A stretch of 64,000 nt of DNA from Beroe forskalii. Lineage: Eukaryota; Ctenophora; Nuda; Beroida; Beroidae. The position numbers were made by a program, and so were the translations under genes. Of the stretch, positions 1,790 through 34,621 are shown one piece after another (within the stretch, counting starts at the first letter, position 1; each line of letters begins with the position of its first letter). The stretch spans positions 248,001-312,000 of the forward strand of contig WFMF01000056.1 in assembly GCA_011033025.1 (NCBI GenBank), in the 5' to 3' direction. The notes under the pieces are model-generated. The model did not search any database. It had not been told where the DNA came from and worked only from the letters and a program-made list of their open reading frames with translations.

Positions 1790-1830
1790 TTACAAAGAAC
1801 CACAGGCATAGCTCCGCAGCTTGCAATCTC
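1790..1830 (-). CDS. Candidate terminal Cys-pair exon, copy A
   Basis: After ATGCAG the frame set by the acidic exon reads DCKLRSYACGSL and stops at TAA. Copy C (24078-24133) keeps both cysteines and the CGSL motif but reads five residues further before its stop. Confidence 0.42.
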
Positions 1831-3619
1831 CTGCATTCACATTTTCAACGGAAGAGGTTTGTGATTTGATTTATTCAACTATCCTTATATCACTTAGGGA
1901 TCGTTCACATATTACGTAATCATTTTTTGGCCATTTCAACCCCCTCCCTCCCCCTCGTGATCAAACGTAATCAAAGCCCAACGAATTTCTTCGAAAGTTC
2001 GAACTCATATGCTTTCATGTTGAATTGTGCCCATCTTCGCAGATGGGATTTGAAAAATTGAACAGATTTTGAAGACAATTGAAACGAATGTTATGATTAT
2101 GTATCTACGGAAAATATCAAATACTCAAATAATACCCCGAATTTTCACTGCAAATTTTCTCTTGATTTTCTCGTAGTTTCTTGCTTTCTTGATGCTATGT
2201 TTTAGTAATCTGTTGCTACTGTCCGTACCAAACACGCTTTCCTGAAAAACAATATCTCGATCAAATCGTTTTCATGTGTAAAGACTAATGCAACTGCATC
2301 TTTCCGCGTCGATCGAATGAACTGATCAAATAAAAACGCATAAAAGTGCTCGCGCTGAGTTGCGCTTGCTGTTTTGCGCGGGCGTCATCGTGAAAGTGCA
2401 TTGTACGAGTTTTTCATTTGATCAGTCCATTGGATCGATGCGGAACGATGAAACCAACTTACATTGTGCTTATCTTGATATGCCAATCCGAATGAAGTTT
2501 GGTGAAATCTATGTAACAGTTCTGAAATATCTCACCTACAGTAGTTCATACTTTAATCAATTCCTTGGTCTGAACATTGAACAATTTTAATTATTTACTT
2601 CTTACGAGCTTGTGATTTGGTACGTATTCTATAATTTGAGATTACCTCCGTTGTAGCCTTTGTATACCCTGGGTGCCTCCTCCGCCATAAAAGCTTCTCC
2701 ATTCATCTCATCTTCATGTAGCTCCATGTCCTCAATGGTCTCTGATTCTGAAAATGGCCAGGGATTTAATACTGAATTCTGTAGACTAGCAGAACCCATG
2801 GCCTCCGGCCATCGTTCACAATTTTTTCGCTTCAGCAATTGGTACAGTATAATGCAGTACTGTAGTTCTTATCAGTGATGAGGTCATATTTTAATCGGGT
2901 GTGCCTACTCCTCTATGTGATGTCTATATGTCAGGTGGTGTCAAACGTCACTGGTACTCTGGTATGAACATTCCGATCATCAGCAATCGGCATGCTTGAT
3001 TGGGTACTGAGTGGTGTCAGAAAAATCTGTGGCTATATATAAGCCACCGGACAGACAGAAATCATAAACCGGACAGACAGATATATATATATATATATAT
3101 TTATTTATATATTTATATATGAGGAAGAATTATAAGTAGTAAGATTAGGATTATATTTGATTAATTGAAACAATTTACGGACGCAACAACTCTTCGACAG
3201 GTATTTCGTCCTCATAACCTCTCCCTATTAGCCATTTCCAGCCCTCTAACCCCTCCCCTTCTAACAAATCATCAAATCCTCGAACAATTCTCTACTTCCT
3301 AACTCAATACCCATCCTTCCTAACCCATCCCTTCCAAACCCATCCCTTTTCTGCCCATTCCTTCCTTACCAATCCCTTCATTACCCATTCATTCCAAACC
3401 CATCCCTTCCTTACACGAACCTGTCCTTCTCTAACCCATCCCTCCCAAACCCATCCCCTCCAATTCAATCCCTTTTTCCACATCCCTCCCAAACCCATCC
3501 CTTTTTCCACATCCATCCCAAACCCATCCCTCGGGCCCCTGTCTCCTCTCACCTCGTGAGTTGAGTGAAGCTGTCTGGGTGAGGACGAGGAGAGAGAAAA
3601 CCAGGACGAAGCACTTCAT
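1790..3619 (-). CDS. Peptide gene A: predicted small secreted peptide, 3 exons
   Basis: I do not recognise this family. Exons in order: 3553-3619 (signal peptide MKCFVLVFSLLVLTQ, then TASLNSR), 2646-2747 (acidic, ending YKGYNG) and 1790-1830 (ending in TAA). Phases are 1/1 and 1/1, AG/GT borders are present, and the total of 210 nt gives 69 residues plus a stop. The last exon reads DCKLRSYACGSL, with a C-x6-C pair that could form one disulfide loop. The first intron holds a G-rich minisatellite and a dispersed repeat. Copy C has the same organisation. The third exon is the weakest part: its acceptor is plausible (ATGCAG) but short. Secretion is predicted; function is unknown. Confidence 0.5.
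2646..2747 (-). CDS. Acidic exon, copy A
   Basis: TTTTCAG acceptor and GGAG|GTAATC donor, 102 nt, symmetrical phase 1-1. It encodes SETIEDMELHEDEMNGEAF then MAEEAPRVYKGYNG. It is strongly acidic with a Tyr/Gly-rich end, like a propeptide or a flexible linker. Confidence 0.65.
2862..3150 (+). repeat. Dispersed repeat ending in a (TA)n tract, inside intron 1 of gene A
   Basis: It contains 'GGACAGACAGAAATCATAAA'-type sequence followed by TATATA. An inverted copy lies at 39985-40290, where the simple tract is (TAAA)n. Absent from copies B and C. Confidence 0.7.
3290..3535 (-). repeat. G-rich minisatellite in intron 1 of gene A
   Basis: On the coding strand it is made of units based on GGGATGGGTTTGGGA and GATGTGGAAAAAGG. 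The same repeat follows the signal exon in copies B and D. The open frames over it are repeat artefacts. Confidence 0.75.
3553..3619 (-). CDS. Signal-peptide exon, copy A
   Basis: The ATG (3619-3617) follows a purine-rich AAAAAGAA leader shared by all copies. It encodes MKCFVLVFSLLVLTQ then TASLNSR, with a short basic start, a hydrophobic core and a small-residue cleavage region. Donor CACGAG|GTGAGA, phase 1. Confidence 0.72.
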
Positions 3620-4569
3620 TTCTTTTTCTGTTTGCTGCTTTTGGCTATTTTGAATTGAAGAAAGTTATGAATTCAGGTAATGAATTCAGCACTTAGGTAA
3701 AGCGTTAATACCTAAGTGCTGAAAACGTTCATTTCGCAGCGATTTTAGCCAGAAAGAAAGCGATATTATTATCACTGTGTAGTAAAAGGAGAATTTGGTT
3801 TCATATCAGGTAATTTGTTAATTTATAGGTCTGGGCTGAGCGGCCAAGGGGGCGTACCGAAGTAGAGAAATGAGACGAGCTTATACTAGGCAACTTCAGT
3901 CTTTCATAGGAACTTGAGAAGTCCGTTCAATCGCACCTTGGATCATTATAACCTCAAAGAGATAATCAAAGATTCTGCACATACCACTTGCGGAAGAATT
4001 TGGAAGCACTCATAGGATGCACCCAAAGGTCGCATCACAACTAGAAAACCCGATCTGCATTAAACCAAATTTATGAGTTTATGACTCCGGCAATCATCCC
4101 TTCTTGTCAACTACTCAATTAGTTAATTATGTGGGTATTATATCTTTTGTATGCTAACAGTTACCCAATATACGCATTATGTAAATCACATAATACCTAT
4201 TCAAATAATTGTATTGTAGCATAATATAAGCTGCTACTGCGCTAAAATACGAATATGTGATAAATATAACCGCTATCAACAGACGTTACAATAGTAATGA
4301 TTTAGCATCTTCTGGAGTGCGGGTGTTAACCCCAGCAATAACTGTTAACAATAGATTACAAAGAGTCCAGTTCGATAAAAAGCATCCAAGTTATACAGCC
4401 TTGGTGTCTAAACATTATATAATCTCTTCAAATCCTTTATTACTTCATTACTTGGTATCCCATGATGCATTATGACTAGAAAGACGCGTAAATTATAGTA
4501 ATTAATGCTGCATGAATTTATGCAGCTCATTCAATAACTCTCGGAGTTTAGGAGATAATCATTCACATA

Positions 4570-4992
4570 CCTTATTGGCCTTTATTTAACCGGCCCTTAA
4601 GGACAAAAATGACTTTGAGATTTTTGTCCAAAGGGCCGGTTAAAAAAAAGGCCGGCTAAAGTGGGGCCGGTCAAATTAAAGGCCAGTCAATTTAGGTCAA
4701 ATGAAACTTTTTTGACTTGCCTTTTATTCTCGTGAACGTCATTATATAACACGATAATGACCTAAATCATCATATAAGATCGGGATTTGGGTCTTTTGGT
4801 GCAATTTATTAAGTATAAATGGGTTTAAATGGCCATTTTAGAGCAAAAAATCCTTGGTCTGGTGACCACTAGAAAATTTTTTGTCCAAGGGGCCGGCTAA
4901 AAAGGTTCAAAATTGATTCGATTTTTGTCCATAGGGCCGGTTAAAAAAAGGGCCGGTTAAAAAAAAGACCGGCTAAATAAAGGCCAATAAGG
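4570..4992. mobile_element. 423-bp TA-target MITE (CCTTATTGGCC ends)
   Basis: The terminal inverted repeats are CCTTATTGGCC / GGCCAATAAGG, extended by GGCCGG blocks. It is flanked by TA (4568-4569, 4993-4994). Copy B has the empty site near 8976 with a single TA. This fits Tc1/mariner-type mobilisation. Confidence 0.8.
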
Positions 4993-5001
4993 TATGATTT
5001 A

Positions 5002-5187
5002 CCCTGACGAGTTGGTCTAGCGTGGTTCCACGCTAGCGAACTGCTTGCGAACCGGTTGCGAACCGGTAGCGGAACGGTTCACAACCGCTTCGCTAGCGTG
5101 GTTCCACGCAACGTAGCGTGGCGACCAAGCTACTTAGCGTGCAAGCGGTTCACTAGCGTGGAACCACGCTAGACCAACTCGTCAGGG
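5002..5187. mobile_element. 186-bp palindromic MITE in copy A
   Basis: Ends CCCTGACGAGTTGGTC and its complement, flanked by TA (5000-5001, 5188-5189). Near-perfect long palindrome with CTAGCGTGGTTCCACGCTAG. Copy C lacks it and keeps a single TA. Confidence 0.82.
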
Positions 5188-5400
5188 TATCTGATTTGGA
5201 TTTCAATCCGAAAAAAGTTGATGAAAATCACTGATTAATGATGATTATAGCCTCTGCGACAAAATAAGCTGATCTTAATAGATAAATCTGATTTAATAAA
5301 CTGACATCGGGAATATTTTCGGAATTCTACTCCGTCATCAACCTCAAATTTGATTTTAAAGTTTAAAAACCACCGTTTATGAGGTACAAAATAGAGTATA

Positions 5401-7040
5401 CCTTATTGGCCTTTATTTAGCCGGCCTTTTTTAACCGGCCCCATGGACAAAAGGGGGGGGGCCAACCCCCTCAATTTTGGTGGATATAGAAAATCGCCAA
5501 TAGGGGGTTTAATTTTGGGGGGTTTTGGGGGTTTTAGGGGTTTGGGGGCTTAATTCTTAGTGCAAAAATGGGCATTTTTTCTCAAATGGTACCTTTTTTG
5601 TTCCTGATTTTTGCACCATTTCAAAATGGTACCATTTTTGGTCGTGATTTTGGCGATTTTTATAAATGGTACCATTTTTGTTTCGGTTTTGGTACCATTT
5701 TGTTTATAATTTTTGGAACTTTTATGAAATGGTACCATTTTTGTTTCTGATTTTCAGCATCTCTTTCAAATGGTACCGTTTTGTTTCTGATTTTTACATC
5801 CTTTCAAAATGGTACCATTTTTGTTTCTCATTTTTGCACCATTTCAAAATGGTACCATTTTTGTTCGTGATTTTGGCGATTTTAGAAATGGTACCATTTT
5901 TGTTTTCCGGTTTTGGTACCATTTTGTTTATAATTTTTGGAACTTTTATGAAATGGTACCATTTTTGTTTCTGATTTTCAGCATCTTTTTCAAATGGTAC
6001 CATTTTTGTTTCTGATTTTTAACACCCTTTCAAAATGGTACCATTTTTGTTACTGATTTTTGCACTATTTCAAAATGGTACCATTTTTTGGTGGTGATTT
6101 TGGCGATTTTAGAAATGGTACCATTTTGTTTCCGGTTTTTGGTACCATTTTTGTTTATAATTTTTGGAACTTTTATGAAATGGTACCATTTTTGTTTCTG
6201 ATTTTCAGCATATTTTTCAAATGGTACCATTTTGTTTCTGATTTTAACATCCTTTCAAAATGGTACCGTTTTTGTTTCTGATTTTTTGCACCATTTCAAA
6301 ATGGTACCATTTTTGGTGGTGATTTTTGGCGATTTTTAGAAATGGTACCATTTTTGTTTCCGGTTTTTGGTACCAATTTTGTTTATAATTTTTTGGAACT
6401 TTTATGAAATGGTACCATTTTTGTTTCTGATTTTCAGCATATTTTTCAAATGGTATCATTTTGTTTCTGATTTTTAACATCCTTTCAGAATGGTACCGTT
6501 TTTGTTTCAGGCATTCAGCCCCTTTTTTAATGGTACCAATTTTGTTTTTGATTTTTGGCATCATTTTCAATTGGTACCTTTTTAGTTTCTGATTTTTCAG
6601 AAGTACCCTTCTAAATTGGTACCAATTTTTTGTCCGATTTTTTGCGCCTTTTCGAAATGGTACCTTTTTATTCGTGTTTTTGGCAACTTTTTCAAATGGT
6701 ACTTTTTTGTTTCTTCATTTTGGTGCTTTTTTGAATCATACTAGAATAATTTCTGCTGTCGATAGGGGTTTAATTTTGGGGGTTTAATTTTTTGCTGTCG
6801 ATAGGGGGTTTAATTTTGGGGGGTTAAATTAAACCCCCTGGTGGATATAACAAATTTCCAATAGGGGGCTTAATTTTGGGGGGTTTTGGGGGGTTGGCCC
6901 CCCCCCCACAAAAATCCAATCATTTTTTAACGGTTTCAGCCGGCTCCGTGGACAAAAATTTTTCTAGTGGTCACCAGATCAAGGATTAAATGAGCTCTAA
7001 AATGGCCATTTTAACCTATTTATACAAATGGGATCAGTCT
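5401..7040. mobile_element. Composite element with the CCTTATTGGCC end and an internal satellite
   Basis: It begins TA|CCTTATTGGCC like the 423-bp MITE. Inverted G/C homopolymer blocks (about 5451 and 6898) bracket the GGTACC satellite. It ends near sequence matching 4800-4900 inverted. The far terminal repeat is not visible, so the right end is uncertain. Confidence 0.55.
5580..6700. repeat. GGTACC satellite with higher-order structure
   Basis: More than twenty ATGGTACCAT palindromes. The steps are about 40 bp with every fifth or sixth step 23-25 bp, giving a higher-order unit of about 222-227 bp (for example 5668, 5890, 6117, 6344). All open frames here are artefacts. Confidence 0.9.
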
Positions 7041-7049
7041 ACAGTGATT

Positions 7050-7716
7050 GAACTGCCGACCATACCCGAAAATGGTAATGCAAAAGGTTTGCCAAATACT
7101 TGAGCCGACAAACTCGTTACAAAAAATATTGAATAAATTTCATAAATTGTGAGATTTGAAACTTTGAAAGCATTTTTTGACAATTTGGGGCCGTCTTAAT
7201 AATCAATATCATTCTTCCGAAAATGAAAGAATTGACAATGTGGGTAAACTTGAAGTGGCTTCTAGTGTTCTAGAGAACCATTGGACCTCCAGCAGTGGAC
7301 CCATTAGCCTGGCAAGTGTTCAACCTCGTTGCGGTGCGCTACAAATTGGTTGCCCTATTTCTGAGAAATAAAGACCGTGAAAAAATCATTTGCCCTTGTC
7401 AAATAAATATATTATTTTTTCCTGTTTAATATTATATTCTCTATGGCTCTTTGGGGTGCCCTCAGAGCGGTTTTCAATCAGTTTTATCAAATTTTATCAA
7501 ATAAATTGTATTTTCGTTATATACAGTGGGGGGCAACCCCGAAAAACCCCGCGTGGACATAAAAATTGGCAAATGGGGGTGTAATTTTCGGATTTAATCC
7601 AATCGATCTGAAATTTTGACAGTTGCACCCTTGACCTCTAAACATGCGATGTTCAAATTTTAGTGCGATTTCGGCAACGGGAACTTACCCAAATTTCAAC
7701 GTGAAATATGGCCAAT
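7050..7716. other. No gene seen
   Basis: AT-rich unique-looking sequence with a short G/C-rich 'GGGGGGCAACCCCG'-like stretch near 7529. No supported exon. Confidence 0.5.
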
Positions 7717-7795
7717 AGAAATATTATTTAGAAATATTATTTAGAAATATTATTTAGAAATATTATTTAGAAATATTATTTAGAAATATTATTAT
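7717..7795 (+). repeat. 13-bp tandem repeat
   Basis: About six copies of AGAAATATTATTT. Confidence 0.9.
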
Positions 7796-12213: not shown

Positions 12214-12295
12214 ATGAAGTGCTTCGTCCTGGTTTCCTCTCTCCTCGTGCTCACCCAGGCAGCGACAGATGGTTCACAATCAGGTTCACAATCAG
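12214..12295 (+). CDS. Signal-peptide exon, copy B
   Basis: 82 nt from ATG to TCAG|GTAAGG, phase 1. It differs from the other copies after residue 7 (V-S-S for V-F-S) and ends in a small GSQS duplication, making it longer by five residues. Confidence 0.68.
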
Positions 12296-15200
12296 GTAAG
12301 GGGAGACAGGGAGACAGGGAGAAGGACGGGTTTGGAAGGGATGTGTAAAAAGGGATTGATTTGGAGGGGATGGGTTCAAGAAGGACGGGTTTGGAAGGGA
12401 TGTGTAAAAAGGGATTGATTTGGAGGGGATGAAGGACAGGTTTTCAAGGGATGGAAAGGTTTGGAGGATGTAAAAAAGACGATTTGGAGGGGGATGGGTT
12501 CGAAGGACGGGTTTGGGAGGGATGTGTAAAAAGGGATTGATTTGGAGGGGGTGGGTTCAAGAAGGACGGGTTTGGAAGGGATGTGTAAAAAGGGATTGAT
12601 TTGGAGGGGATGGGTTAAAGAAGGACGGGTTTGGAAGGGATGTGTAAAAAGGGATTGATTTGGAGGGGATGGGTTAAAGAAGGACGGGTTTGAAGGGATG
12701 TGTAAAGGGATTGATTTGGAGGGGATGGGTTCAAGAAGGACGGGTTTGGGAGGGATGTGTAAAGGGATTGATTTGGAGGGATAAGAAGGACGGGTTTGGG
12801 AGGGATGTGTAAAAAGGGATTGATTTGGAGGGGATGGGTTCAAGAAGGACGGGTTTGGAAGGGATGTGTAAAAAGGGATTGATTTGGAGGGGATGGGTTC
12901 AAGAAGGACGGGTTTGAAGGGATGTGTAAAAAGGGATTGATTTGGAGGGGATGGGTTCAAGAAGGACGGGTTTGGGAGGGATGTGTAAAAAGGGATTGAT
13001 TTGGAGGGGATGGGTTCAAGAAGGACGGGTTTGTGTAAGGAAGGGATGGTTAGACCCCAACTAATCGTGATGTGACGCGTCACGTCATGCGTCTCCTATT
13101 CTAACTAATCGTGATGTGACGTGTCACGTCACGCGTCATGTCACGATTAGTTAGAACAGGGGACGCGTCCCCTGTTCGAGAGGAAATCCTAACATCCTAA
13201 CGACCTCGCGCGCTCATTTCTTCTTGATTTCGACTGAGGATGTCAATGGGCAGAGCGGAATCCAGTGTCAAACAAAGAAACAATAAGTAAATTCATATGA
13301 TTTTTGACAAGAGGTCGTTATCAACTCAAGGTGAACGTTAAAGCTTCAACTCAGACTTGTTTTATTTTCTCAAAAATACTGCAATAACGCATCAACTTCA
13401 TTTATTATCAAGCTATCGATTGTCAGCAAAATTGAACGAACAACCAATAATTCCAAGGCACAACCGGAAAGTACACACTACACAGAGCAAGGACAAGCAA
13501 CATATCAGATAGCAACAGAGGAGAAATGGTGTCTGTTAATGAGGTAAGCGTTGACCCCTGCTGTAGTGCTGTAGGCTGATCAGGTGACCTATATCTCATA
13601 TCAACCGCCCTTGCATTATTGCTTGATACAGGTTACCTGATCTCTGATCAGTCTACAGCAGGGGTAAACGCCTACCTCATCAGCAGACACCATTTCTCTT
13701 GTGCTGTTATAGTGTTATCTGATATGTTGCTTGTCCTTGCTCTGTGTAGTGTGTGCTGTGTAGTTTCCGGTTGTGCCTTCGCATTATTGATTGTTCGTTC
13801 AATTTTGCTGACAATCGATAGATTGATAATATGCTTGATGCGTTATTGCAGTATTTTTGGGCAAATAAAACAAGTCTAAGTTGAAGCTTTAACTTTCACC
13901 TTGAGTAATTGTTAATAAAGACCTCTTGTCTTGTGACTTTTCAGAAATCATATGAAATTATTTATTTTATTGTTTCTTTGTTTGATACTGGATCTCGCTC
14001 TGCTCCTTTAAGTCAAAATCTAGAGGAAATGCGCGCGCGAGATCGTGACGTGACGCGTCACGTCACAAGTAGTTAGAACAGGTGACGTGTGACGTGACGC
14101 GTCATGTCACGATAAGTTGGGGTCCTAAGTATATGGCACTTCTTGTTAAGTTCCTTGTTTTCTACAGGTATGAAAATGGGGGTGTAGGTCAAAGAAATAT
14201 GCATCTTTTTCATTCACAGGGACTGCGATATGGGCAATTTCCGTATGCCCATAATATGGTAAATGACCATATATGGGTACACTTCGACGCTTATTAATAA
14301 CTTTATTAAAACCAAAGGAGTAACCAAAGAGATAGCATTATAGCAACATATTTTTTTCTCGTATACCCAGATTATCATAATTACCATATATGGGCATACG
14401 CGAGCAAAAATAGGCGGATGCCCATATATGGGCATATGAAAATCGGTGATAACTCAGCTTCTGGAGGTCGTAGGTCAAAAATTTTGGATCTATACCCCCA
14501 TTTTCTGGACTGAGGAACACGATGAGAAGGCTTAGAAATATGTTACTCAAGTGGAAAAAGAGATGGGTAACTTTTTACCGAAAATCACGATTTTTACAGG
14601 TAAAAATGGCTGTGGCCTGTGCACGTGCTTAAAATCATTTTTTCGCCTGAAACTTTTTTCTGCCAATTTGTATGTCCTAAAGGATAGCTTTTGACCCCGA
14701 ACAACATACAGTTCTCTAGTCGGGTAATTATGAAACGCCCTATTATCATACCCAGAGAACACGAATATGAGGTCAACACTAATTCTCGAATATCATCAGG
14801 AGTGGCCAAAACAACATATATGGGCATTTCGTATGTAAGACACTTGCCATATAATATGGTCTTTTGGCCATACCTGAGGGTATTTGGGAGGGATAAACCA
14901 CATATTATTCGTGTTCTCTGAGTATGATAATGTGGGTATAGAAGAAAAAATTATTTTGCTATCTCATTTGGTTTATTATGAGTTATTAAGCGTCGAAGTT
15001 ATACCCATACTAGAAAATGGTACTCGTCATTCCTTGATGATACGATAACGAAAAAATTTTGCTCCGTTGTCAAAAGAAAATTCAAAATTGTGTGCATTAA
15101 ATGAACCTCTCCTAAATAACTGGGCTTTTTGAATCCTATCCTTTTAACCCAAAAAGCCAAAATTGAAATTTTCTTCAAGCAACATTTGTTTCAGTTTACT

Positions 15201-18200
15201 GTACCGACGAAAGGGGGTCGTGTGCCACTAGCACGTCTGCTGAGCTTTGCGCCCGGCACTGGACTGTCAGGAACTGGTATTGTAGGCAGACTTGCGGAAT
15301 GTGTGAAGGTATTTAATGCTTAATTCGGTGACTTAAATGAGTCCATTTGACAGTTACTTATTTCAAAGTTATATTATTTTTATTATATAACGATCGTTAT
15401 ATATATTTTTTTGCTCCGATAATTTCCATTATATCACTCCAGTGCAGATAACCACAGTGCAATATAAGGGCATATTGCACTCTCAGATAATTGTTAGTAA
15501 TTAAAGTTGTGAAATTACAGAAGTCTTCTCGTTGGTGGATGGAACGTTCTATGCTAATGATCGCCGGAGTTTTAATTTAAACAGCTCCGATGGAAGTGAG
15601 TTATCCCTCCTCATCTACCAAGGCGGCACTGTCTGTGACGCTTACCCGTACAGCTTCACTGACCTAGCTGCAGACGCTATCTGCAGAAAGATGGGATTCT
15701 CTAAGATGAAGGAATGGAAAATGCTTGGCGGCGACTACGGGAAATTCAAATCAGTGATATGGGGAGGAATAAGGAGGAGACTGCATGATGTGAAGTGTGA
15801 CAGCAATGAATGGAGCGAGTGTACGTTTGATGAGGATGTTGGTGATGATTGTTATGCTAGCGAGAATATCCTTCTTTCTTGTGGTAAGAAACTGAATGTC
15901 TATGTCACTTCTTGTTTAGAGGGAGGGGGGGGTTCTAGCCAAATTTTTTGGAAAACAAGTTTCTGAGATAATGGTTGACCCAAAAGGTACACCTCGTGGG
16001 CCAACTTTTTGGCCGGGTTTGGCACCCCCAGTCCCAATGGCGCCGCTGTGGATGGGATCTGAGGTGTGCAATCGATAGATAATGGTCACCTGAGTTACCA
16101 TAAAAATATTTGAAGTCGATATTAAATACCTCAAAAAACCCCTAAATTGCCATTTTTGGTCCGAGGACCAGAAATTTTTTGGGGACCTGAATCAAAATTC
16201 AGCTCTATAACATAAGTGCGAAATTTAGTTTTGAAGCGATTCTGAAAATTTCATGTAAAAATATTGAAAAATAGCTGAGATTTTGAAAAAAATGTTAAGT
16301 CCATTATTGCCAAACCGCAAACCGGGAAAATGGCAATTTAGGGTTTTTAGAGGTTTTTTGGACCGTAAATCGTCATTTCAAGTTCAGCAATCAATCCCAA
16401 ACTTGCAGAGAATACGTAACCCAAAGCTATTTATAATCGAATAAAGTTGGTTTCATTCAAAAATATTGATATTTGGCCAAGTTATGGGCCAAAATAGGCT
16501 TGGTAACTCAGGTGACCATTATCTATCGAGTGTACACCTCGGATCCCGTCCAAGTCGCTTTTGGAAAAATGCACCCATTGTGGGCGCACTTTTGGCGGCG
16601 GCGCCAGTGGGCCTGGGGATACCAAACCTGGCCGAAAAGTTCGCCCACGGGGTGTACCTTTTGGGCCAATCATTATCTCAGAAACGTGTTTTCCAAAAAA
16701 TTTAATGGCTTGAACCCCCCCCCCAGACCCCAACTAATCGTGAAATGACGCGTCACGTCATGCATCCCCTGTTCTAACTAATCGTCACGTCACGCGTCAC
16801 GTCACGCGTCATGTCACGATTAGTTAGAACAGGGGACGCGTCCCCTGTTCGGAAGAAAATCCTAACTACTTAACTAATCATGACGTGATACGTCACGTCA
16901 CGATCTCGCGCGCGCATTTCTTCTAGATTTTGACTGAGGATGTCAATGAGCAGAGCGAAATCCAGTGTCAAACAAAGAAACAATAAATAACTTCATATCA
17001 TTTCTTCTTCATCCATTTCTTCTTTTTCTCATTCTTCGTGAGTTCTTGTTGCTTTTCTCATTCTTCGTGAGTTCTTGTTGCTTTGCTCCTCCTGCACCAT
17101 CACTCCTGTTACTTCAGCTCTCATCAGTTCTTATTTATCTTCAGCATCTCTCTGTTGGCTCTTTGGTCCATGCACTCTGTACGTGCCCACATTATGATCC
17201 CCGATCTCATCAAGTTCCTTTAAGTACCTATTTCAGTTTGTGGCCCCTTTTTTGCATTCTTACTTCTACTACCTCAAATCATTACGTTGATGACTTTGCA
17301 TCAAATCAATTCCAATCACCATAACACATCACCAAATCACATTATCATCTCTGTTTAACATAATGCTACTGACATGTGTGTGATTTGAACGACATTGCTT
17401 TTATCACAAATTATATTTTTAAAATTCTTGTAAAAAATCTTGTATGATTTCTGACAAGTCACAAGACAAGAGGTCTTTAACAACTCAAGGTGAAAGTTAA
17501 AGCTTCAACTTAAACTTGTTTTATTTGCCCAAAAATACTGCAATAACGCATCAACTTCATATAATCAATCTATCGATTGTCAGCAAAATTGAACGAACAA
17601 TCAATAATGCGAAGGCACAACCGGAAACTACACATTACACAGAGCAAGGACAAGCAACATATCAGATAGCAACAGAAGAGAAACGGTGTCTGCTGATGAG
17701 GTAGGCGGTGACACCTGCTGTATAGGCTGATCAGGTGACCTATGTCTCATATCAACCGCCCTTGCATTACTGCATGATACAGGTTACCTGATCTCTGATC
17801 AGTCTACAGCAGGGTTCAACGCCTACCTCATCAGCAGACACCATTTCTCTTCTGTTGCTATCTGTTATGTTGCTAGAGTCGCTCTGTGTGTGTGGCGGAT
17901 TTCATTATTGATTGCCTTCGCGACCAATTGTTCGTTCGATAGAATCGTATGAAGTTGATGCGTTATTGCAGTATTTTGGGCAAATAAAACAAGTCTAAGT
18001 TGAAGCTTACTTTCACCTGAGTTGTTAAAGACCCTTGTGAATAAAAGTAATGTCGTTCAAATCACACATGTCAGTAGCATTATGTTAAACAGAGATGATA
18101 ATGTGATTTGGTGATGTGTTATGGTGATTGGAATTGATTTGATGCAAAGGAATTACTACATGTGCACTGGCTTATATTGTGACCATTTTGTGTCGTGGTA

Positions 18201-18519
18201 TAATGCGCTAATCTAACTCTCCTAGTGGTATTGTTGCATTTATTGCACTCGGCTTCTCCTCGTGAAATTAGTGCTCTGATCAAACTCGGCTTCGCCTCGT
18301 GTGGTTAGTGCTGTTATGAGCACTCGGCAATGCCTCGTGCAATAACAGCAACAATACCACTACGGGTAGTTAGATTAGCGTATATAATCCAACTACAGAA
18401 TTCAGTACTAAATCCATGCACAATTTCAGAATCAGCGACCATTGAGGACATGGGGGAAGATGCTGTTAAGGAGGACAGTTACAAACCATCAGGGAGGCAT
18501 TATAAAGGCTACAACGGAG
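12214..18519 (+). CDS. Gene B: signal peptide, SRCR domain and acidic exon (inverted copy)
   Basis: Plus-strand exons 12214-12295 (signal peptide MKCFVLVSSLLVLTQ, then AATDGSQSGSQS), 15521-15883 (SRCR domain) and 18430-18519 (acidic exon ending HYKGYNGG). Every junction is phase 1, so all three join in frame. SRCR domains are extracellular protein-interaction modules, here on a secreted protein or larger receptor. No stop-bearing last exon was found after 18519; homology with copies A and C ends near 18985, before the place where their terminal exon would fall. The introns are filled by foldback elements. It could be a partial gene, or the SRCR exon may belong to another model. Confidence 0.45.
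12300..13045 (+). repeat. G-rich minisatellite in intron 1 of gene B
   Basis: About 54-60 bp units with AAGGACGGGTTTGG, GATGTGTAAAAAGGG and GATTTGGAGGGGAT, around 12-13 copies. A 235-codon minus-strand open frame (12376-13083) is a by-product of the repeat (Pro/Ser-rich). Confidence 0.85.
13053..14124. mobile_element. 1.07-kb palindromic element, GACCCCAAC ends
   Basis: Inverted ends GACCCCAACTAATCGTGA / GATAAGTTGGGGTC with (TGACGCGTCACG)-type subrepeats. The arms continue to a centre near 13610. The 86-codon frame inside is an arm artefact. A related copy starts at 16726. Confidence 0.8.
14160..15020. mobile_element. Foldback element with ATATGGGCAT motifs
   Basis: Inverted pairs include TTCGACGCTTA / TAAGCGTCGAAG and CCCAGAGAACACGAATA / CGTGTTCTCTGAG. 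Several CCATATATGGGCAT palindromes. No transposase. Confidence 0.6.
15521..15883 (+). CDS. SRCR-domain exon
   Basis: 363 nt, acceptor AATTACAG, donor CTTGTG|GTAAGA, phase 1-1, as is usual for single-exon SRCR domains. The frame holds TVCDAY, ADAICRKMGF, LHDVKCDSNEWSEC, GDDC and a final LLSC: six cysteines matching the group A set of positions. The Trp and Gly pattern fits although it is divergent (WKMLGGDYG). SRCR domains bind proteins or polyanions outside the cell (established). The exon is intact, with no stop or frameshift. Confidence 0.85.
15920..16724. mobile_element. Foldback element just after the SRCR exon
   Basis: Homopolymer G / C ends, with arms containing GGTGTACCTTTTGGGC and ATAATGGTCACCTGAG and their inverted partners. 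About 240-bp arms. It begins about 35 bp after the SRCR donor. Confidence 0.7.
16726..18150. mobile_element. Second GACCCCAAC palindromic element
   Basis: Left end and arm as in 13053-14124, with extra internal sequence (17005-17450) whose inverted partner is at about 18030-18150. The right outer end is missing. It includes a 27-bp direct repeat of CATTCTTCGTGAGTTC. Confidence 0.7.
18195..18385. mobile_element. Small foldback with CTCGGCTTCGCCTCGTG motifs
   Basis: Arms ACTCTCCTAGTGGTATTGTT and AACAATACCACTACGGGTAG. Related sequence at 20390-20520. It lies about 45 bp before the acidic exon of gene B. Confidence 0.6.
18430..18519 (+). CDS. Acidic exon, copy B
   Basis: 90 nt, phase 1-1, TTTCAG acceptor, GGAG|GTAATC donor. 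It encodes SATIEDMGEDAVKEDSYKPS then GRHYKGYNG. The middle differs most from the other copies; both ends are conserved. Confidence 0.6.
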
Positions 18520-19384
18520 GTAATCTCAAATTATAGTATACTTTTATTACGGTTCTTGATTCATAAGCTCGTAAGAATTAAAATTGTTCAGAGCAAGGAA
18601 TTGATTTGATATGAAGTACAGTAGGTGAAATATTTCACAACTAATACAAAGACCACTTTTTAAATAGATTTCACCAAAATTTATTCGGAGATATTATTGT
18701 TTTTCAGGAAATCGTGTTTGGTACGGACAGTAGCAACAGATTACTAAAACATAGCATCAAGAAACTACGAGAAAATCTAGAGAAAATTTGCAGTGAAAAT
18801 TCGGGGTATTATTTGATATTTTCCGTGGATACCTAATAATCATAACATTCGTTTCAATTGTCTTCAAAATCTATGTAATTTATCAAATCCCATCAGCTAT
18901 TCAGCTAAGATGGGCATCAATTCAACATGAGGACAAGGCAAAATAAAAGCCTATGAGAGTAGAACTCTGTTCGAACTTTCGAAGAAATTCATCTGCAAAC
19001 TTGGGACTATGACCGACAACATATCCAAAGATGAAGTTCTGGGATGGTCCCGTTCTCTCACAATCATCCTTACCGTTTTTGCTTTTTTTTGCGATTTTTT
19101 CGTATCAAAGTGTTTCAAACAAGCGCAAATATCTCAATGATCCCAAGAAGCCCAGAACTTTTCGACCACATTTTTGCAAAGTACATTGAATTTCCTTTCT
19201 GCGCTAGCGTTTTCTCACAATAAATTATCAAAAAATCCCGCGCGTTTTGCCAAAAATTAGTGTTATGGACAGTACGACGACGACCAAAAAACGACCACAA
19301 AACGGGAAACACTTCAAGGGAGAACCATAGAAGATAGAGCCGTAATCTAAAACGCATATGAAACTTTATAATGAGGTGCGTCAT

Positions 19385-22220: not shown

Positions 22221-23011
22221 TTCTTTTACTCATTATTGCCCACACTAGATAGCAGAAATCACTAATTTACTTGGCGATGGATGGTAAATGGTGAATTCTT
22301 TTTAATTTCATGCAATGGCATTCGTTTAGCTGCTTATTAACATCTCATTAACATGATCAGTGGCTTACTAGCTTACTCATGGGACCACGACATTGTCATG
22401 TCATCGACCAATTGGGGCGCGAGTCTGCAGTCAACTGGCTCACAGATTGGCTAATGTCAAATGGACCTGTGTGTAAGCTAATATTAGCAGTCACAATGAT
22501 AAAATACATGATTTTGTGGTTTGAACTTCCAAATTTTATGGAACTTATGACTTAATGATTTTCAAACTTTCAAAGCCCTAATGACTCATGGTTACCCCAA
22601 CGTGGGGTTTTACACATATACCTACATTTTATGAACACGGGACGACAGAAGTATCTGGTGGCTTATGAGTTTTTCCTTGAATTTTTCTCAACTTGTGCCA
22701 CTTGGCATGTCATCAAAATTTATGGTACTTTGCTTATGTGTGGACTGTAAATTAAATAAAATCAGAATTGTTTTGAAATTGTTTTTTAATTGTTTTTTTT
22801 TCATAGACACGTGCATATCGGGTCCATTTTTGGATACTTCCCGAGGGATGTATCCAGTTTAGATTAGCAGCTGAAGGGCGAGGGTCTAAACCAATATGAA
22901 CCCGATCAGGCAAGTCTCTACCGTATATTTATTATAGACTCCGATGAAAATGTCAGAGGTTTATATAAACATATAAAACTAATATGTATAACTAACCCCC
23001 TTCTATTTCAG

Positions 23012-23090
23012 AGAGTTCGTAGTGGCGTATAACCACGATGACCAGCAGCCTAAAGCCACACTATGTACTGTCGGAGGGAACAGCGGCTGA
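23012..23090 (+). CDS. Candidate terminal exon (copy C)
   Basis: Same frame and stop as 827-905, with a single copy of the acceptor unit. It is antisense to peptide gene C and beyond its 3' end. No known domain is recognised. Confidence 0.25.
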
Positions 23091-24077
23091 CAACCCACGA
23101 TTATACTAAACACCGCGCACGAGGAATAGGCGGTTGAACTTCATCAACTCACTACATCCTGATATGATAATGACGTCATCCTAACCGCCTATTTCTCGCG
23201 CGCGCTGTATAGGCAGTGTGGACAATATGATTTGTAAACCAAATAAATAGGCGGTCGAGAGTCCCGTCATTATCAGTAAATATCATTGCACGGTGAATGA
23301 TGTCAACTATGACTAATTAGGTACATGTCTTGTGATGTTCTTGTCGTTTATTATTCATAATCTACTACTTCTTGTGAAAAATAATAACCGGTTTTCCCAT
23401 CCTATTCACTCGTCCTTTGGAAAATAAAATGCTTTTAAAACACTTTTCAACAAAATCGTTACGTATATCGAATAAATGGTGCCTGAGTCAATGTCAATGG
23501 AGATGTGCCCAAATAAGTGCCTCAAATTTTCCTTTAATTAGTTTTTCTTTAAAAACTATGATTAATAACCGGAAAAATTAAAAAGTCTGAAATAATCGAC
23601 GTATTATTTTGAGGTTTTCTTGGTTTTGGTTTCTGTGGCTGGGTTTCCTGTGACCTAGAAGACCCATCGGGTCATCTAATTTTATACACGGAGAATATTT
23701 AATGTTTTCAATTTTAATAAAGTGTTAGCGAATTGAGATTATTTCACGACTATTTGTGTAATAATGATTAAAAACCTGATATTTTGTTATAAATATTATG
23801 ATTTAACTATTTATGATTTTGTGAAATAATATCCATCTTTTCTTTGATTCCACCGAAGCTTGATAAAACCAGCTCCATTTTGCCGTCATCCTTGCGAATT
23901 TATGATTGATGGAAACAATCTAATATGAAAATCCTATGAAACTTAATGTCATGATGATTAAATTAGTTTGCTATATTGTGGTTGGAAATCATAACACATG
24001 CACCTGTCACCTTTCACTGTATAGAATGAAACAAGTCTATCCAATGTATAGAATGAAACAAGTCCATCCACGACCTT

Positions 24078-24133
24078 TCATCTTGGGTTTGGTATCAAAG
24101 AACCACAGGCGAAACTCTGCAGCTTGCAATCTC
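24078..24133 (-). CDS. Candidate terminal Cys-pair exon, copy C
   Basis: ATGCAG acceptor, phase 1 entry, 17 residues then TGA: DCKLQSFACGSL followed by IPNPR. Relative to copy A the two residues changed inside the loop are Q for R and F for Y. A small length change (TTTGATACC versus TTTGTAACC) moves the stop. Confidence 0.42.
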
Positions 24134-25780
24134 CTGCATTCACATTTGCAACGGAAGAGGTTTGTGATTTGATTTATTCAACTATCCTTATCACTAAGGG
24201 ATCGTTCACATATTATGTAATCATTTTTTGGCAATTTCAACCCCCTTCCTCCCCCTCGTGATCAAACGTAATCAAAGCCCAACGAATTTCTTTGAAAGTT
24301 TGAACTTAGCTTTCATGTTGCTTCGTCCTTATGTTGAATTGGTGCCCATCTTTGCAGATAATAATACCCCGAATTTTCACTGCAAATTTTCTCTTGATTT
24401 TCTCGTAGATTCTTGATGCTATGTTTCAGTAATCTGTTGCTACTGTCCGTACCAAACACGATTTCCTGGAATATTTCCAAATAAACTTTGGTGAATTCGA
24501 TTTTAAAAAGTGCTCTTTGTAAAAGTTATGAAATATCTCACCTACATAACAGTACTTTATACTTTTATATTTGTCTTAGAAATTTCAAATTTCTTACGAG
24601 CTTGTGAATCAAGAACCGTTATAAACGTATTCTATAATTTGAGATTACCTCCGTTGTAGGGTTTATATTCCCTGGGCGCCTCCTCCGCCATAAAAACTTC
24701 TTCATTCATATTCTCATCTTCATGTAGGCTCATGTTCTCAATGGTTTCTGATTCTGAAAATGGTCAGGGATTTAATACTGAATTTTGTAGTACCATCCAC
24801 CTCCCCTCCATCCCACTTCCTATCATCGTCGGAAGGTAATCACAACATTTTGCATGAAATTTTGCATGAAATTGGCATACCTTTTAATTCCCTGGCCGCC
24901 TTTTTCCCCTTACCTCGTGAGTTGAGTGAAGCTGTCTGGGTGAGCACGAGGAGAGAGAAAACCAGGACGAAGCACTTCATTTCTTTTTCTGTATGCTGCT
25001 CTTAGCTATTTCGAATGATAGAAAGTTGTGAAATTCAATATAAACCTTATGTTGAATTGGTGCCCATCTTCGCAGATGGGATCCGAAAAATTGAACAGAT
25101 TTTGAAGACAATTGAAACGAATGTTATGATTATTATGTATCCACGGAAAATGTCAAATAATACCCCGAATTTTCACTGCAAATTTTCTCTTGATTTTCTC
25201 GTAGATTCTTGATGCTATGTTTCAGTAATCTGTTGCTACTGTCCGTACCAAACACGATTTCCTGGAATATCTCCGAATAAATTTTGGTGAAATCTATTTA
25301 AAAAGTGCTCTTTGTAAAAGTTATGAAATATCTCACCTACATAACAGTACTTCATATGTAATCAATTCCTTGTTCTGAACAATTTCAAATTTCTTACGAG
25401 CTTGTGAATCAAGAACCGTTATAAACGTATTCTATAATTTGAGATTACCTCCGTTGTAGGGTTTATATACCCTGGGCGCCTCCTCCGCCATAAAAACTTC
25501 TTCATTCATATTCTCATCTTCATGTAGGCTCATGTTCTCAATGGTTTCTGATTCTGAAAATGGTCAGGGATTTAATACTGAATTTTGTAGTACCATCCAC
25601 CTCCCCTCCATCCCACTTCCTATCATCGTCGGAAGGTAATCACAACATTTTGCATGAAATTTTGCATGAAATTGGCATACCTTTTAATTCCCTGGCCGCC
25701 TTTTTCCCCTTACCTCGTGAGTTGAGTGAAGCTGTCTGGGTGAGCACGAGGAGAGAGAAAACCAGGACGAAGCACTTCAT
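24078..25780 (-). CDS. Peptide gene C: predicted small secreted peptide with duplicated first exons
   Basis: Same family as gene A. A tandem duplication of about 0.8 kb gives two signal-peptide exons (25714-25780 and 24914-24980) and two acidic exons (25449-25553 and 24649-24753), ahead of one terminal exon (24078-24133). Signal, acidic and terminal exons total 228 nt, that is 75 residues plus TGA. Because the acidic exons are phase 1-1, either or both could be included. The terminal exon holds DCKLQSFACGSL, then IPNPR. The minisatellite found after the signal exon in A, B and D is absent, leaving a short intron of about 160 bp. The family is unrecognised. Confidence 0.5.
24649..24753 (-). 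CDS. Acidic exon, copy C2 (tandem duplicate)
   Basis: 105 nt, phase 1-1, nearly identical to C1 except PREYKP for PRVYKP. It is the copy nearest the terminal exon. Confidence 0.62.
24914..24980 (-). CDS. Signal-peptide exon, copy C2 (tandem duplicate)
   Basis: Identical to C1, exactly 800 bp away. Its upstream flank is provided by the duplication, so it may have its own promoter or be skipped. Confidence 0.65.
25449..25553 (-). CDS. Acidic exon, copy C1
   Basis: 105 nt, phase 1-1. It encodes SETIENMSLHEDENMNEEVF then MAEEAPRVYKPYNG. The Pro replaces a Gly of copy A. Confidence 0.63.
25714..25780 (-). CDS. Signal-peptide exon, copy C1
   Basis: It encodes the same 22 residues as copy A (MKCFVLVFSLLVLTQ...) and ends CACGAG|GTAAGG, phase 1. 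The leader before the ATG and about 350 bp of 5' flank match copies A and B. Confidence 0.72.
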
Positions 25781-26227
25781 TTCTTTTTCTGTATGCTGCT
25801 CTTAGCTATTTCGAATGATAGAAAGTTGTGAAATTCAATATAAACCTTAGCTAAAGCGTTAGTATGCGCTGAAAACGTTCGTTTCCAAACGATTTCAGCC
25901 GCAAAGAAAGCGATATACAGTAATCATCACTGATCGTGCGAAATTGAGAATTACATTCACTTGCAACCGGTATCTTGATTACCTCAAAGAGATAATCAAA
26001 GATTCTACACATACCACTTGCGGAAGAATTTGGAAGCACTCATAGGATGCACTCAAAGGTCGCATCGCTACTAGAAAACCCGATCTGCATAAAACCAAAT
26101 TTATGAGTTTATGACTCCGACAATCATCCCTTCTTGTCAACTACTCAATTAGTTAATTAAGTGGGCATTATATCTTTTGTTTGCTAACAGTTACCCAATA
26201 TAGGCATTATGTAAATCGCATTATACC

Positions 26228-29123: not shown

Positions 29124-29299
29124 GGGGTCAGTGGTCATTCAGCGAAACTTTGTAAGGAAAAGCAGTAGCTGTAAAGGAAAAACTACTGGGACCGTATTGA
29201 GACCCTAAATTCTAAAACCCATGTCACGACTCCAGAGATCTGCAGTCTCAACTTTAAGCCCAAAGGGCACATTTATACCACACATGGGAAAAGCTTTAC

Positions 29300-29775
29300 T
29301 GGGAGTCTTCCTAAATCCAAACGACATTGGCATGAGCTTCAAGACGAATCTAAGATAAGGTTTGATGGTAGATGCTTAGATGTCCTCAGTCTCGACTCGA
29401 AAGCTCAAAGATCCGTCGCAACTCACTACCACAACTCATTTGGAGTGAAAGCAGCCCTTATCTGGTATATTCTTCCTAAATCCGTTAACGAACAGTCAAC
29501 ACTTGATTAATTCACAGTGTACTATTATCCACACATGGAAAATAGCTACTGGAGCTGCTCCAAACGACATTGGCATGAGCTTCAAGACGAATCTAAGATA
29601 AGGTTTGAAGGTATCTGTCCCCAGTCTCAACTTTAAGCCCAAAGATCCGTCGCAACTCACTACCACAACTCATTTGGAGTGAAAGCAGCCCTTTTCTGGA
29701 GTATTCTTAAATCCGTTAACGAACAGTCAACACTTGATTCATTCAAAGTGCTAGCTTTCCGCCGAAAATTTCCTC
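29300..29775 (+). pseudogene. LINE ORF2 C-terminal remnants, two partial copies
   Basis: Two repeats (about 29300-29515 and 29560-29760) read HNSFGVKAALIWYILPKSVN / HNSFGVKAALFWSILKSVNE then STLDSFK, the typical tail after the reverse transcriptase of non-LTR elements (W..LP...TLxxFK). Stops and shifts upstream show it is dead. Confidence 0.6.
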
Positions 29776-29779
29776 TGTT

Positions 29780-30380
29780 TTCCCCAAAAATTTCCACCGC
29801 TTCAAAATTTCCCTCGAACCAGGTTTGCAGGTTCGCAGCTTTTCGAATATGGGCTTAATTCATTCAAAGTGGCTCTGGGAAGATTTCTTGAGAGCTTGCC
29901 CGACACAGCAACAGCCTTTTTCAGACTTTCAGAGATGTTCCGGAATGGCAGGCTTGGAAGACTCGCATGTTGACGTCGCCCATCTGTGATCCCGGCTAAA
30001 CAGACTCTAAGGTACTCTAAGGTGTCAGACACGGGACCCGTATGGTTCTATGGCGATTCATGTGTCAGAAAGGTAATTTTACCCCCAAAAACGTGAAGTT
30101 GTTTGGTCATAAACCTACAAAAAGGCGTAATTTCAAGATTATTATATCACTCGTGAATCCCTTAGGTCTTACAGGAATGGCCTGCAAAGTTTCAGCTCCA
30201 TCACTTTAATCAGGCAACTTTTTAATCTATGAATTTCATCAATCTGGATGCCTCGAAAAATAAAATCAGCAAAATCATCGTGTTTAACTATGTAAAAAAT
30301 AGGATATGATGACTAAGATATACTGACTAAGATTCCAACTAGACGCCTAGACGGTACATACCGCTGTACGTACCGATTCC
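29780..30380. other. No gene seen
   Basis: Unremarkable AT-rich sequence; no supported exon or repeat. Confidence 0.4.
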
Positions 30381-30604
30381 GGGTCGGTCTCCCATATAAA
30401 CAGGAGCCTTCATCATCAATGACAATGACGTCACTCAAAAAATATAATTAAGCGCACCTAGCGCTTTAAGCATTAAGGTTAGGGTTCTGGTTAGGGTCAG
30501 GATTTGTTAGGTTTAGCGTAAGGATAAAGGTTAGGTTTAGGAGACAGAAAAATTGACGTTTAGATCTGTGACGTCACTCAGCCGTTTATATGGGAGATAT
30601 ACCC
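30381..30604. mobile_element. MITE with internal TTAGGG-like repeats
   Basis: Inverted ends GGGTCGGTCTCCCATATAAAC / GTTTATATGGGAGATATACCC and inner TGACGTCACTC pairs. The middle has degenerate TTAGGGTT units. The ends differ from the 8252 element. Confidence 0.6.
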
Positions 30605-30609
30605 GATTC

Positions 30610-33060
30610 AGAGTGAGCATTTATCCCCAAATTTCTTAAGGAAAAGATATGAAGCCAGGAACAAACAATTGTCAATGATCAAGCCAATCGAAAATTAATG
30701 CAAATTAGAGGGGAAAATATCAAAATTGGAAATCTGTCATCCTAATGGCCATATTCCCTAGTTTTATTGGTCGGACTTGAGACCTTTCATGACGATTTAT
30801 TAGTTACAAAGGTCATTTTAGCGTAAAAAGCAAAAAACTGCGAATATGCTGTATTAAAATCTGAAAAACCAACGTTTATTGTACAATGCGGGTTATACTT
30901 TGACTTAGAGGGGACTTGCAATTGGTGTATATCATTGCTGCAGTGGGGTCAGGCGCCTTGCTAATATGTCCAGATTTCCTACGAGCTATATGGCGATTTT
31001 ATACGTCAAAAAAGAGACTTTTAGACCATTTAACTGCGAATTTTCTCGGTCATAAACGTAAGAAGGGGGGGGGGGGTAATAACCAAATTCTTAAGTTTAT
31101 CAGAATTTTTCACCATACTACTAACATTTTGTATATTAAACTGCCAAACGACCGATTACCATTTGTCAATAAATCCAGTTACGGTTTCGGTTCGCTAAAA
31201 ACGTTAGTTAACTGGTATTTCGGTTTCACATTGGTAAACCGGACATTTCCTAATTATGACTGGATCTGATTGAAAAAAGTGCAATTATTCTCCACTGTAT
31301 TTCCATATAAGGACAGCATCTCGTTTCTTTACCGTATCTGGTAATTGTGCTGACTTCTTCAGGTCTATGATTCTGCTCTGATAAGTGATATTTCCCGAAG
31401 TGTGTCCTCAAAAACCAGTTAGGATAAAGATCAAACACACTTATTCTCCACTGTATTTTGAACACCATTTTGATAGGACTGCATCAAAGTGCGGTTTTTA
31501 TGGGCCGGGGGTGGAGTAATTGAAAATTGACTTCTTCAGGGTTTCAAATTTTTTGGCAAATAAAAATCAAGAAAATGGTTGAGAAAATGTGACCAACAAT
31601 TTTGTTTTCAGGAATACTCATTTTTAGGATAGACCCAAGTTTGTTCCGTGAGGGGCCGCAGCCCCCACGGCCCCGCTCTGGCTACGGGACTGTGTGAGAT
31701 ATGTGTCAGAGAGAGTGCATTGAATCTGCTTACCAATTCAGTAATTCCTAAAGAAGCTATCTAAATTATTTCGAAAAACAGACCTAATTCAAGGTTTCAT
31801 GAGAAAATTTCAACCGGACACAACTCCTCAGAGCTGAAATTGCACCCCGGTCAATGTTTTGCTGCCTATAAGCTTACACGCCCAACCCTGACCAGTGACC
31901 CAGTTTGTCGCATTCCTGTTCCATATTTGGAGTTCCCGAAGCAAATATTACGTAATAAGGTCTTCTTTACGCTACGATTTGATGTTTCTTAAGCGCGGTT
32001 GAGACGCGCAGTGCGCGCGCGCTCAAATTCTTCCTATTTGGGTATTTGACTGTCCCATTTGACTGTCCATCACATTGGAAATTGAAAGAAATTAATTAAT
32101 TTCATGGCGTTGAATCTTTTAAGATTAAGTCAAGTGCCCTTCCCTAATTAAAACAAATTCAAAAATCAAACTTATTTTCACTCAAATAAAAGACAGTTTT
32201 TAAGAAAGATCCACTGAAAATAGTATCCAGAATTTTCACTCCAAAATTCTTACTGAAAAATATTCCATGTGTTATTCAAGTCATAATAGTCAATCTAAAA
32301 GTTGTATTGATTGGTATAATACACTACTTTCACACGTAGAAATGGTGCTATCAATTTCAGTTAATTAGTTATGATAAACATAAAATGTGACAGAACCTCC
32401 ATTTGATATCTATTAATGACCTTATCAACATAGCATTCAGATATACACGATTAAAGAATAATGAAAACATTTTTCGTAACTCTTCAATCACAAGAAAATA
32501 CTTCGGGAGAGAAAAATACAATCGATATTTTTCAAGGCAGTTTAAAACAAAAGGAATTAATCCCGTAAGTTTTAACCGAGCAAATGGGCGATGACTTTTA
32601 GATCACGATATACAAAAGAGGAACTGTCACCATCGAAGCTTGTCGTCACCATGACGTCACACGTCACATGACATGATGTTATTTCTTTCATTCTGCTGCA
32701 ATTATCCGTACCAAACACGGTTTCCTGAAAAATAAATACGATGAAAAATGGGGCAAACCAAAATAGCAATTTCGTAACTACAGCTATGATTTATTGGCTC
32801 AATATCCTTCGAGCGGTAGGGGTAAATTTATCATGCCATCCGTATTGGGCGAAAGTTCGTCCAAAAGGGTGCAATTGTATCTCGTAAAAATTTGATATCT
32901 TGAGTTAAGCTAGAGGATATTATAATTCTATCGATAAAAATCTATAAGACATTTCAAAATATTTCATTATATTTTTTCGCAGGGTTTTATATTTTCTGCA
33001 AGTTCGTCTGACGCGTCTAAAGTACATAAAATCATCAAATTATAATATCTTAAAATCTGG
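30610..33060. other. No gene seen
   Basis: Mostly AT-rich. A block near 30890-30950 matches the 28780-28830 flank (CTGCAGTGGGGTCAG). A GC-rich tail near 31650 (GGGGCCGCAGCCCCCACGGC) resembles a transposon end. Short open frames only. Confidence 0.4.
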
Positions 33061-33068
33061 TCTCTTAC

Positions 33069-33173
33069 CTCCGTTGTATCCTTTGTACACCCGAGCTTCC
33101 TCCTCTTCCGCCATAACAACTTCCTCCTTTATCTCATCTTCATGTAGCCTCATGTCCTCAATGGTCTCTGATT
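33069..33173 (-). CDS. Acidic exon, copy D
   Basis: 105 nt, phase 1-1, TTTTCAG acceptor, GGAG|GTAAGA donor. It has more Glu than the other copies. ETIEDM and YKGYNGG are retained. Confidence 0.62.
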
Positions 33174-34621
33174 CTGAAAAGGGGTTTAGGAGTTAGGTTA
33201 CCATTTTTACCCTTTCGTCCCGAACATTTACCTAGTTGTGTTAGAATGCAAATTTCAATGCGTTCTCTAAATTTTGAGGACAATTGAGAGTTTTTAAAAA
33301 ACATTTAACCCTCATCCCCCTTTCCACTTTCACTCGAACTCACCCCCTCAGTTGATTATGTTATATGTGTACGATCTCTGATATTAACTTTTGCATCGTA
33401 ATTGTATTCGAAAAGTCGGAAAGCAAGGAATTTTTTAGATAAATCAAGGTTCAACCAGCAGAAATAGAATTTGCTGCGAATGAATGAAATTTGCTGCAAA
33501 TTGATTGAATTTGCTGCGAATGATGAAATTTTCCACGAATCGGTAGCATGAATTTTGATTTGCTGCATTGATTGCTGCGTCGATGGCACAATATAATCCA
33601 AAAAGAATTGTTCGTGCACAGCCTCATGGGATTTTTTTGGGATTTATGAGTTGAGCTTTGTGGCTAAGGAGACGTGGGATCGATGGGTATAATTTCGTAA
33701 TTTGTAATTTCATAATTTATCAATTTCATAATTCCCGTTTTAAATGATTCCCGTTTTTTCGCTACACGTTGGTCGTTGTTTGATCACGCAACGAATTGCT
33801 CCGGGAAACGGAAATTCGGCGTCCCCAAACTTAGCGAGTCCTCCAAATTTTCGGCTCCCGGTACAACGATTTAAGTAGTTTTTGTAATTTTCGATTATAG
33901 TCAGTTCCCTTATATATTGCATGGTGGTTGAACATCATCTTGAGATCTTAAATCCCCGCAATACGAGTGATCTAAAATAATTACTTCAAATAATCGAATT
34001 TGTTTTATAGAGTCGAGAGCGCGGGCATGAAGGAAAGACTAGACTAAGTGTTTATAAATTTGCCTAAATTATTAATTTTGTAAAATAATATTCCTAATTT
34101 TTATAACTGATAATAAAATTATCAATGATATTCGTATAAACGATAAAATTATCATTTTAATGTTTCTTTTAAAATTAAACTGAGTTGGGATTGCGATAAA
34201 TTGTAACGCTCACTGGGGAACCGAGAAATTTTTGATTGATTGTAAACCCCGTGTAGGGGCACCTCTTAGGGCTTTAAAAGGAAGTATACAAAATAATACT
34301 TACAATAAAATACAAAAATGAGGAATATGCACAATTCATCGTTTGAATCTGTAAATTAAAGGATTTCCTCCCAATATTAGGTGAATTTATCATCCCTGTA
34401 TGCATATAATATATCACTCATTGATACCTTCCACCTAACCCATCCCTTCCATCTCATCCTTCTCAAACCGATCCCCTCCAAATCAATCCCTTTTCATACA
34501 TCCCTTTAAACCTGTCCTTCTCTAACCCATCCCTGGCCCCCTGTCTCCCCTTACCTCGTGAGTTGAGTGAAGCTGTCTGGGTGAGCACGAGGAGAGAGAA
34601 AACCAGGACGAAGCACTTCAT
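33069..34621 (-). CDS. Peptide gene D: partial member (signal and acidic exons only)
   Basis: Exons 34555-34621 (signal peptide, same 22 residues as A and C) and 33069-33173 (acidic; SETIEDMRLHEDEIKEEVV, then EEEEARVYKGYNG). Phases agree. The flanks are diverged from A to C, apart from a short stretch around 32.70 kb matching 2.22 kb. I found no terminal exon within 1 kb downstream. The first intron keeps the CCATCCCTT minisatellite at 34430-34540. It is either a pseudogene or uses a different last exon. Confidence 0.45.
34430..34540 (-). repeat. Short minisatellite in intron 1 of gene D
   Basis: Contains CCATCCCTT and CCAAATCAATCCCTTTT, as in copies A and B. Confidence 0.6.
34555..34621 (-). 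CDS. Signal-peptide exon, copy D
   Basis: 67 nt, identical protein to copies A and C although the surrounding DNA has diverged. This suggests selection or recent conversion. Donor CACGAG|GTAAGG. Confidence 0.7.

Follow-up and report, generated by a model that had tools for sequence, protein, structure and literature searches.

A 64,000-nucleotide stretch of the Beroe forskalii genome (contig WFMF01000056.1, positions 248,001 to 312,000; hereafter the window, to which all coordinates refer) very probably holds a cluster of five small neuropeptide precursor genes, each built of three exons. One of them, gene D, encodes the ctenophore neuropeptide VWYamide (VWYa). The other four, genes A, B, C and E, encode related sequences that end in glycine and glutamine, and we refer to them as GQ-tailed. 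The family itself is known; the cluster and the GQ tail are the new part. Searches described here as genome-wide covered 216.1 Mb in 1134 contigs.

Gene models and the third exon

Genes A to D lie on the minus strand. Their first exon encodes the putative signal peptide and occupies 3553..3619 in A, 24914..24980 in B, 25714..25780 in C and 34555..34621 in D. This exon, MKCFVLVFSLLVLTQTASLNSR, is 67 nucleotides (nt) long in all four genes, with 66/67 or 67/67 positions identical in every pairwise comparison. The N-terminus of the D precursor, MKCFVLVFSLLVLTQTA, is hydrophobic, and its signal peptide was assigned by eye only. The second exon, which encodes an acidic sequence (ESETIE...), is variable and 102-105 nt long in these genes. 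It lies at 2646..2747 in A and 33069..33173 in D, where it supplies an acidic spacer and the start of the mature peptide, and at 24649..24753 in B and 25449..25553 in C. An earlier note on this DNA had described four minus-strand loci with a near-invariant signal exon and a variable acidic exon, and had proposed a multi-copy family in which the signal exon and an acidic pro-region precede a short C-terminus, a layout like that of defence or signalling precursors. Our models agree with it on these exons and on a family of signalling peptides.

Two copies were found beyond the original four. Gene E is on the plus strand (12214-18733), with a diverged signal peptide exon at 12214..12295, an acidic spacer and the start of the peptide at 18430..18519, and a third exon at 18708..18733. 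A partial copy, F, lies on another contig (C309) and consists of exons 2 and 3. It resembles E, with 92% identity over 808 alignment columns, and has a glutamine after the glycine. Within 10 kb on either side of the window there are no further copies, and genome-wide we count five signal exons, six acidic exons and six third exons, a tally that diverged members of the family could escape.

The third exon is a short one, of 23-26 nt including the stop, that encodes G(N/K)RVWYG(Q)-stop and is in phase in 5/5 copies. It closes A with KRVWYGQ (2216..2241) and closes B (24440..24465), C (25236..25261) and E with NRVWYGQ. In D (32702..32724) it provides the end of VWYamide, identical to the published peptide, together with the amide-donor glycine and the stop, and D is an intact VWYamide precursor gene. 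A short conserved block follows the acidic exon in every copy, consisting of tttcag or ttccag and, directly after it, GAAANCGTGTTTGGTACGGA. Both introns are GT-AG and of phase 1 in all five genes, and the precursors of A, B, C, D and E are 64, 65, 65, 64 and 65 residues long. They end in RVYKGYNGGKRVWYGQ (A), REYKPYNGGNRVWYGQ (B), RVYKPYNGGNRVWYGQ (C), RVYKGYNGGNRVWYG (D) and RHYKGYNGGNRVWYGQ (E), and the core R-x-Y-K-x-Y-N-G-G-x-R-V-W-Y-G is the same in all five genes, the x positions excepted.

Comparison of D with the other four genes gives identities of 0.84-1.00 for exon 1, 0.72-0.86 for exon 2 and 0.87 for exon 3; the corresponding values are 0.45-0.54 for intron 2 and 0.39-0.58 for the 150 nt 3' of the stop. 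Among the copies, D has diverged furthest in non-coding DNA, and E in exons 1 and 2. A 22-nt consensus of the acceptor plus exon 3 is matched at 21/22 positions in D; among 2000 sequences simulated from a first-order Markov model of that stretch, the best match was 17. Allowing up to three mismatches, the exon 3 pattern occurs at six sites genome-wide and its reversed control at none. The acceptor of this exon has 7-10 pyrimidines among 13 positions. Searches of Pfam and PDB returned no relative of the precursors, a match to DUF515 (E-value 0.16) and three matches to V-ATPase (E-values 0.89-0.96) being at chance level. An Rfam search of the window gave nothing at gathering scores.

Gene D and VWYamide

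A text search with pieces of the predicted peptides led to Hayakawa et al. (2022; PMC9525235) as a match. That paper describes VWYa, ARVYKGYNGGNRVWYa, from mass spectrometry of Bolinopsis mikado, and a corresponding gene, ML02736a, in M. leidyi. Because the end of the D precursor, ARVYKGYNGGNRVWYG, equals the published VWYa peptide plus an amide-donor glycine, we identify D as the VWYamide gene. Its mature sequence, ARVYKGYNGGNRVWY, is identical to that of the published peptide, with VWYG followed by the stop, and this establishes the identity at the level of the encoded sequence. The family is thus not the unrecognised one of the earlier note, since D encodes a published ctenophore neuropeptide letter for letter. 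Two earlier candidates, NGIWYamide of sea cucumbers and antimicrobial precursors of the frog or Hydra type, which have acidic pro-regions, were dropped upon the exact match to VWYamide.

The likeness of D to VWYamide of B. mikado and M. leidyi (ML02736a) extends to the mature peptide, the glycine donor, the acidic run that precedes the peptide and the ctenophore genome in which it is found. Genes A, B, C and E are alike in the core and in the three-exon, phase-1 layout that they share with D. They differ from VWYamide by the glutamine after the glycine and by substitutions towards the N-terminus, where P replaces G, K replaces N, and H or E replaces V.

How the D precursor may be processed is suggested by the peptide published from B. 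mikado. In D, EEEE stands directly before ARVYK, and acidic residues are described as major cut sites (PMC9525235). By analogy, we infer that the D precursor would enter the secretory path and would be cut after the acidic run, between EEEE and ARVYK, and that its terminal glycine would become the amide, yielding ARVYKGYNGGNRVWY-amide.

Other authors have described VWYamide in other species (PMC9525235; Burkhardt et al., 2023, PMC7617566). The subepithelial nerve net has been reported to be syncytial in M. leidyi larvae. In both B. mikado and V. multiformis, neurons that contain VWYa are described as belonging to the subepithelial net, and synthetic VWYa as causing expansion of the oral epithelium in B. 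mikado larvae. In M. leidyi, an antibody to ML02736a is described as labelling vesicles in the nerve net.

That this is a ctenophore genome follows from its photoprotein genes, which are close to berovin, the best being 94% identical over residues 2-208 of 208. A photoprotein cluster on contig C254 (L025-L036, with L028 on C745) holds intact copies of up to 94% berovin identity beside stop-interrupted copies. The reverse primer for Opsin2 of M. leidyi (PMC3570280) finds no site in the genome at up to 3 mismatches, which argues against that species, though a gap or an intron might also account for it.

The GQ-tailed paralogs

The frames of genes A, B, C and E are intact and end in ...VWYGQ-stop, so that a terminal glycine as amide donor is lacking; their core reads xYK(G/P)YNGG(N/K)RVWYG and is followed by the extra glutamine. 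As a rule, amidation by PAM requires a C-terminal glycine. Given this rule and the glutamine that follows the glycine, the products of these four genes, and of fragment F, are predicted to be non-amidated, and A, B, C and E should yield peptides ending in ...RVWYGQ. Such peptides would have been discarded in the B. mikado survey, which is described as having retained solely peptides detected as amidated (PMC9525235); the raw spectra are deposited as PXD030145. Text searches of the literature with peptide pieces did not bring up GQ-tailed peptides, one match being a paper on a sea-anemone lectin, and the passages of the VWYa literature covered make no mention of the paralogs, the scope of both being main text.

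In the mature region, silent and replacement differences per site are 0.60-0.62 and 0.10-0.13 between D and B or C, 0.34 and 0.08 between D and A, and 0.49 and 0.14 between D and E. The low replacement change between D and the other copies fits constraint on the peptide.

A block duplication (107-4197 and 22356-26227, at a spacing of about 22 kb) bears A and the B/C pair, and B and C themselves form an 800-nt tandem duplication. Exon 1 is identical in DNA (67/67) in B, C and D (24914-24980, 25714-25780 and 34555-34621). D and B match at 78/105 positions in exon 2 and at 47/94 of those that align within the 100 nt upstream. In exon 1, B and D differ at 0/13 silent sites, for which the chance is 0.006 if the rate is that of the remainder of the B and D comparison, a figure that belongs to one pair of ten, picked after looking. 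Another such patch lies 3' of the stop in A and E (2066-2215 on the minus strand and 18734-18883 on the plus strand), where the two genes, on opposite strands, agree at 132/134 aligned nt; in exon 2 they agree at 64/90. The exon 1 and post-stop patterns look like patchwise gene conversion or, for exon 1, like constraint at the DNA level.

Several observations weigh against our reading of the window as one VWYamide gene with four GQ-tailed paralogs. The join of exons 1 and 2 of E is the least certain of all, because it spans a 6.1-kb intron that contains an SRCR-like frame (15505-15966, plus strand; E-value 2.7e-5, under the Pfam cut-off). Neither AATAAA nor ATTAAA was found within 1500 nt 3' of the D stop. 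F has no recognisable signal exon in the 7.9 kb upstream of it, and none of the five signal exons found genome-wide is on its contig. A search of the genome for NPWa, a further B. mikado peptide, found nothing with an exact pattern and a query of 17 residues, either of which can miss it. Finally, in the mature region of E against A, B and C, silent change (0.18-0.22) is about equal to replacement change (0.16-0.19), which gives no sign of constraint among the GQ genes themselves, and some of these may be decaying.

We tentatively propose, as a possibility rather than a probability, that the cluster is a two-tier system. Gene D would supply the nerve net with an amidated transmitter. The other four, which gene conversion would have reshaped, would make non-amidated ...RVWYGQ peptides that are diversified on their N-terminal side. 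Alternatively, D alone may be functional, and the four GQ-tailed genes may be recent duplicates that drift towards decay while gene conversion keeps them similar. The near-equal silent and replacement change just described would be expected of such genes, as would the exons of B and C, which differ by 1 nt in total, and fragment F, which lost or lacks exon 1; the identity of A and E after the stop fits conversion. However, the frames of all four genes are still open, their introns are still GT-AG and of phase 1, and the RVWYG core is intact. We consider their general decay rather unlikely.

The invariance of the RVWYG core in all five genes might also mean that the GQ-tailed precursors are amidated after all, an unusual exopeptidase trimming the glutamine, so that the cluster would mainly boost VWYamide output and add N-terminal variants. 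In favour of this, carboxypeptidases and PAM are described as abundant in peptidergic cells of N. vectensis and M. leidyi (PMC9525235). Prohormone carboxypeptidases, however, are known for taking off lysine and arginine rather than glutamine, and we consider trimming unlikely.

The C-x6-C stretch and wider implications

The earlier note had taken a different stretch for the third exon. Downstream of A (1790..1830, minus strand) and of B (24078..24133, minus strand, the end counted by hand) lies a short frame with two cysteines in C-x6-C spacing, and splicing of the signal and acidic exons to it had been proposed to give a disulfide-looped defence or signalling peptide. The arithmetic of that splice is sound, since at both genes the join is in phase and leaves an open frame, which predicts precursors of 69 residues at A and 75 at B (hand-counted; our B appears to be the gene that the note called C). 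Its use as the third exon is not borne out, because a better, conserved exon, in phase and with its own stop, precedes the stretch in 5/5 copies.

The stretch was seen solely 3' of A and B, which are members of one duplicated block. No counterpart was found 3' of C, D or E, where the best ungapped matches were 18, 22 and 21 of 41 nt; for C, the scan covered only the 246 nt up to the start of copy B. Between A and B the stretch is less conserved (35/41) than the sequence before it (95/98) or after it (67/73). Its acceptor is weak, with 4-5 pyrimidines among 13 positions, and in both genes it sits past an AATAAA. We judge the stretch to be non-coding on these grounds, and a disulfide-looped product made from it is highly improbable. 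The resemblance to allatostatin C goes the same way. The ring of allatostatin C has C-x6-C spacing, and this spacing, in a stretch judged non-coding, is all that the two have in common, whereas the supported models hold no cysteine after the signal peptide and their predicted mature peptides are cysteine-free.

Two repeats lie elsewhere in the window. A 12-nt repeat at 37273-37848 has open His/Ser-rich frames, and a 15-nt repeat at 58948-59627 has minus-strand frames that read as NL(N/D)GV pentapeptides.

The plausible reading of this locus as a source of disulfide peptides is thus corrected to one of a VWYamide gene with four GQ-tailed paralogs. The presence of VWYamide in the ctenophore subepithelial nerve net bears on the origin of nervous systems. 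If D sits amid GQ-tailed paralogs, staining with NRVWYamide antibodies may have shown only part of the system, as may surveys that retain amidated peptides alone. Should the two-tier arrangement that we tentatively propose hold true, the ...RVWYGQ peptides would be receptor-selective variants of VWYamide or competitors to it, invisible to amidation-filtered peptidomics.

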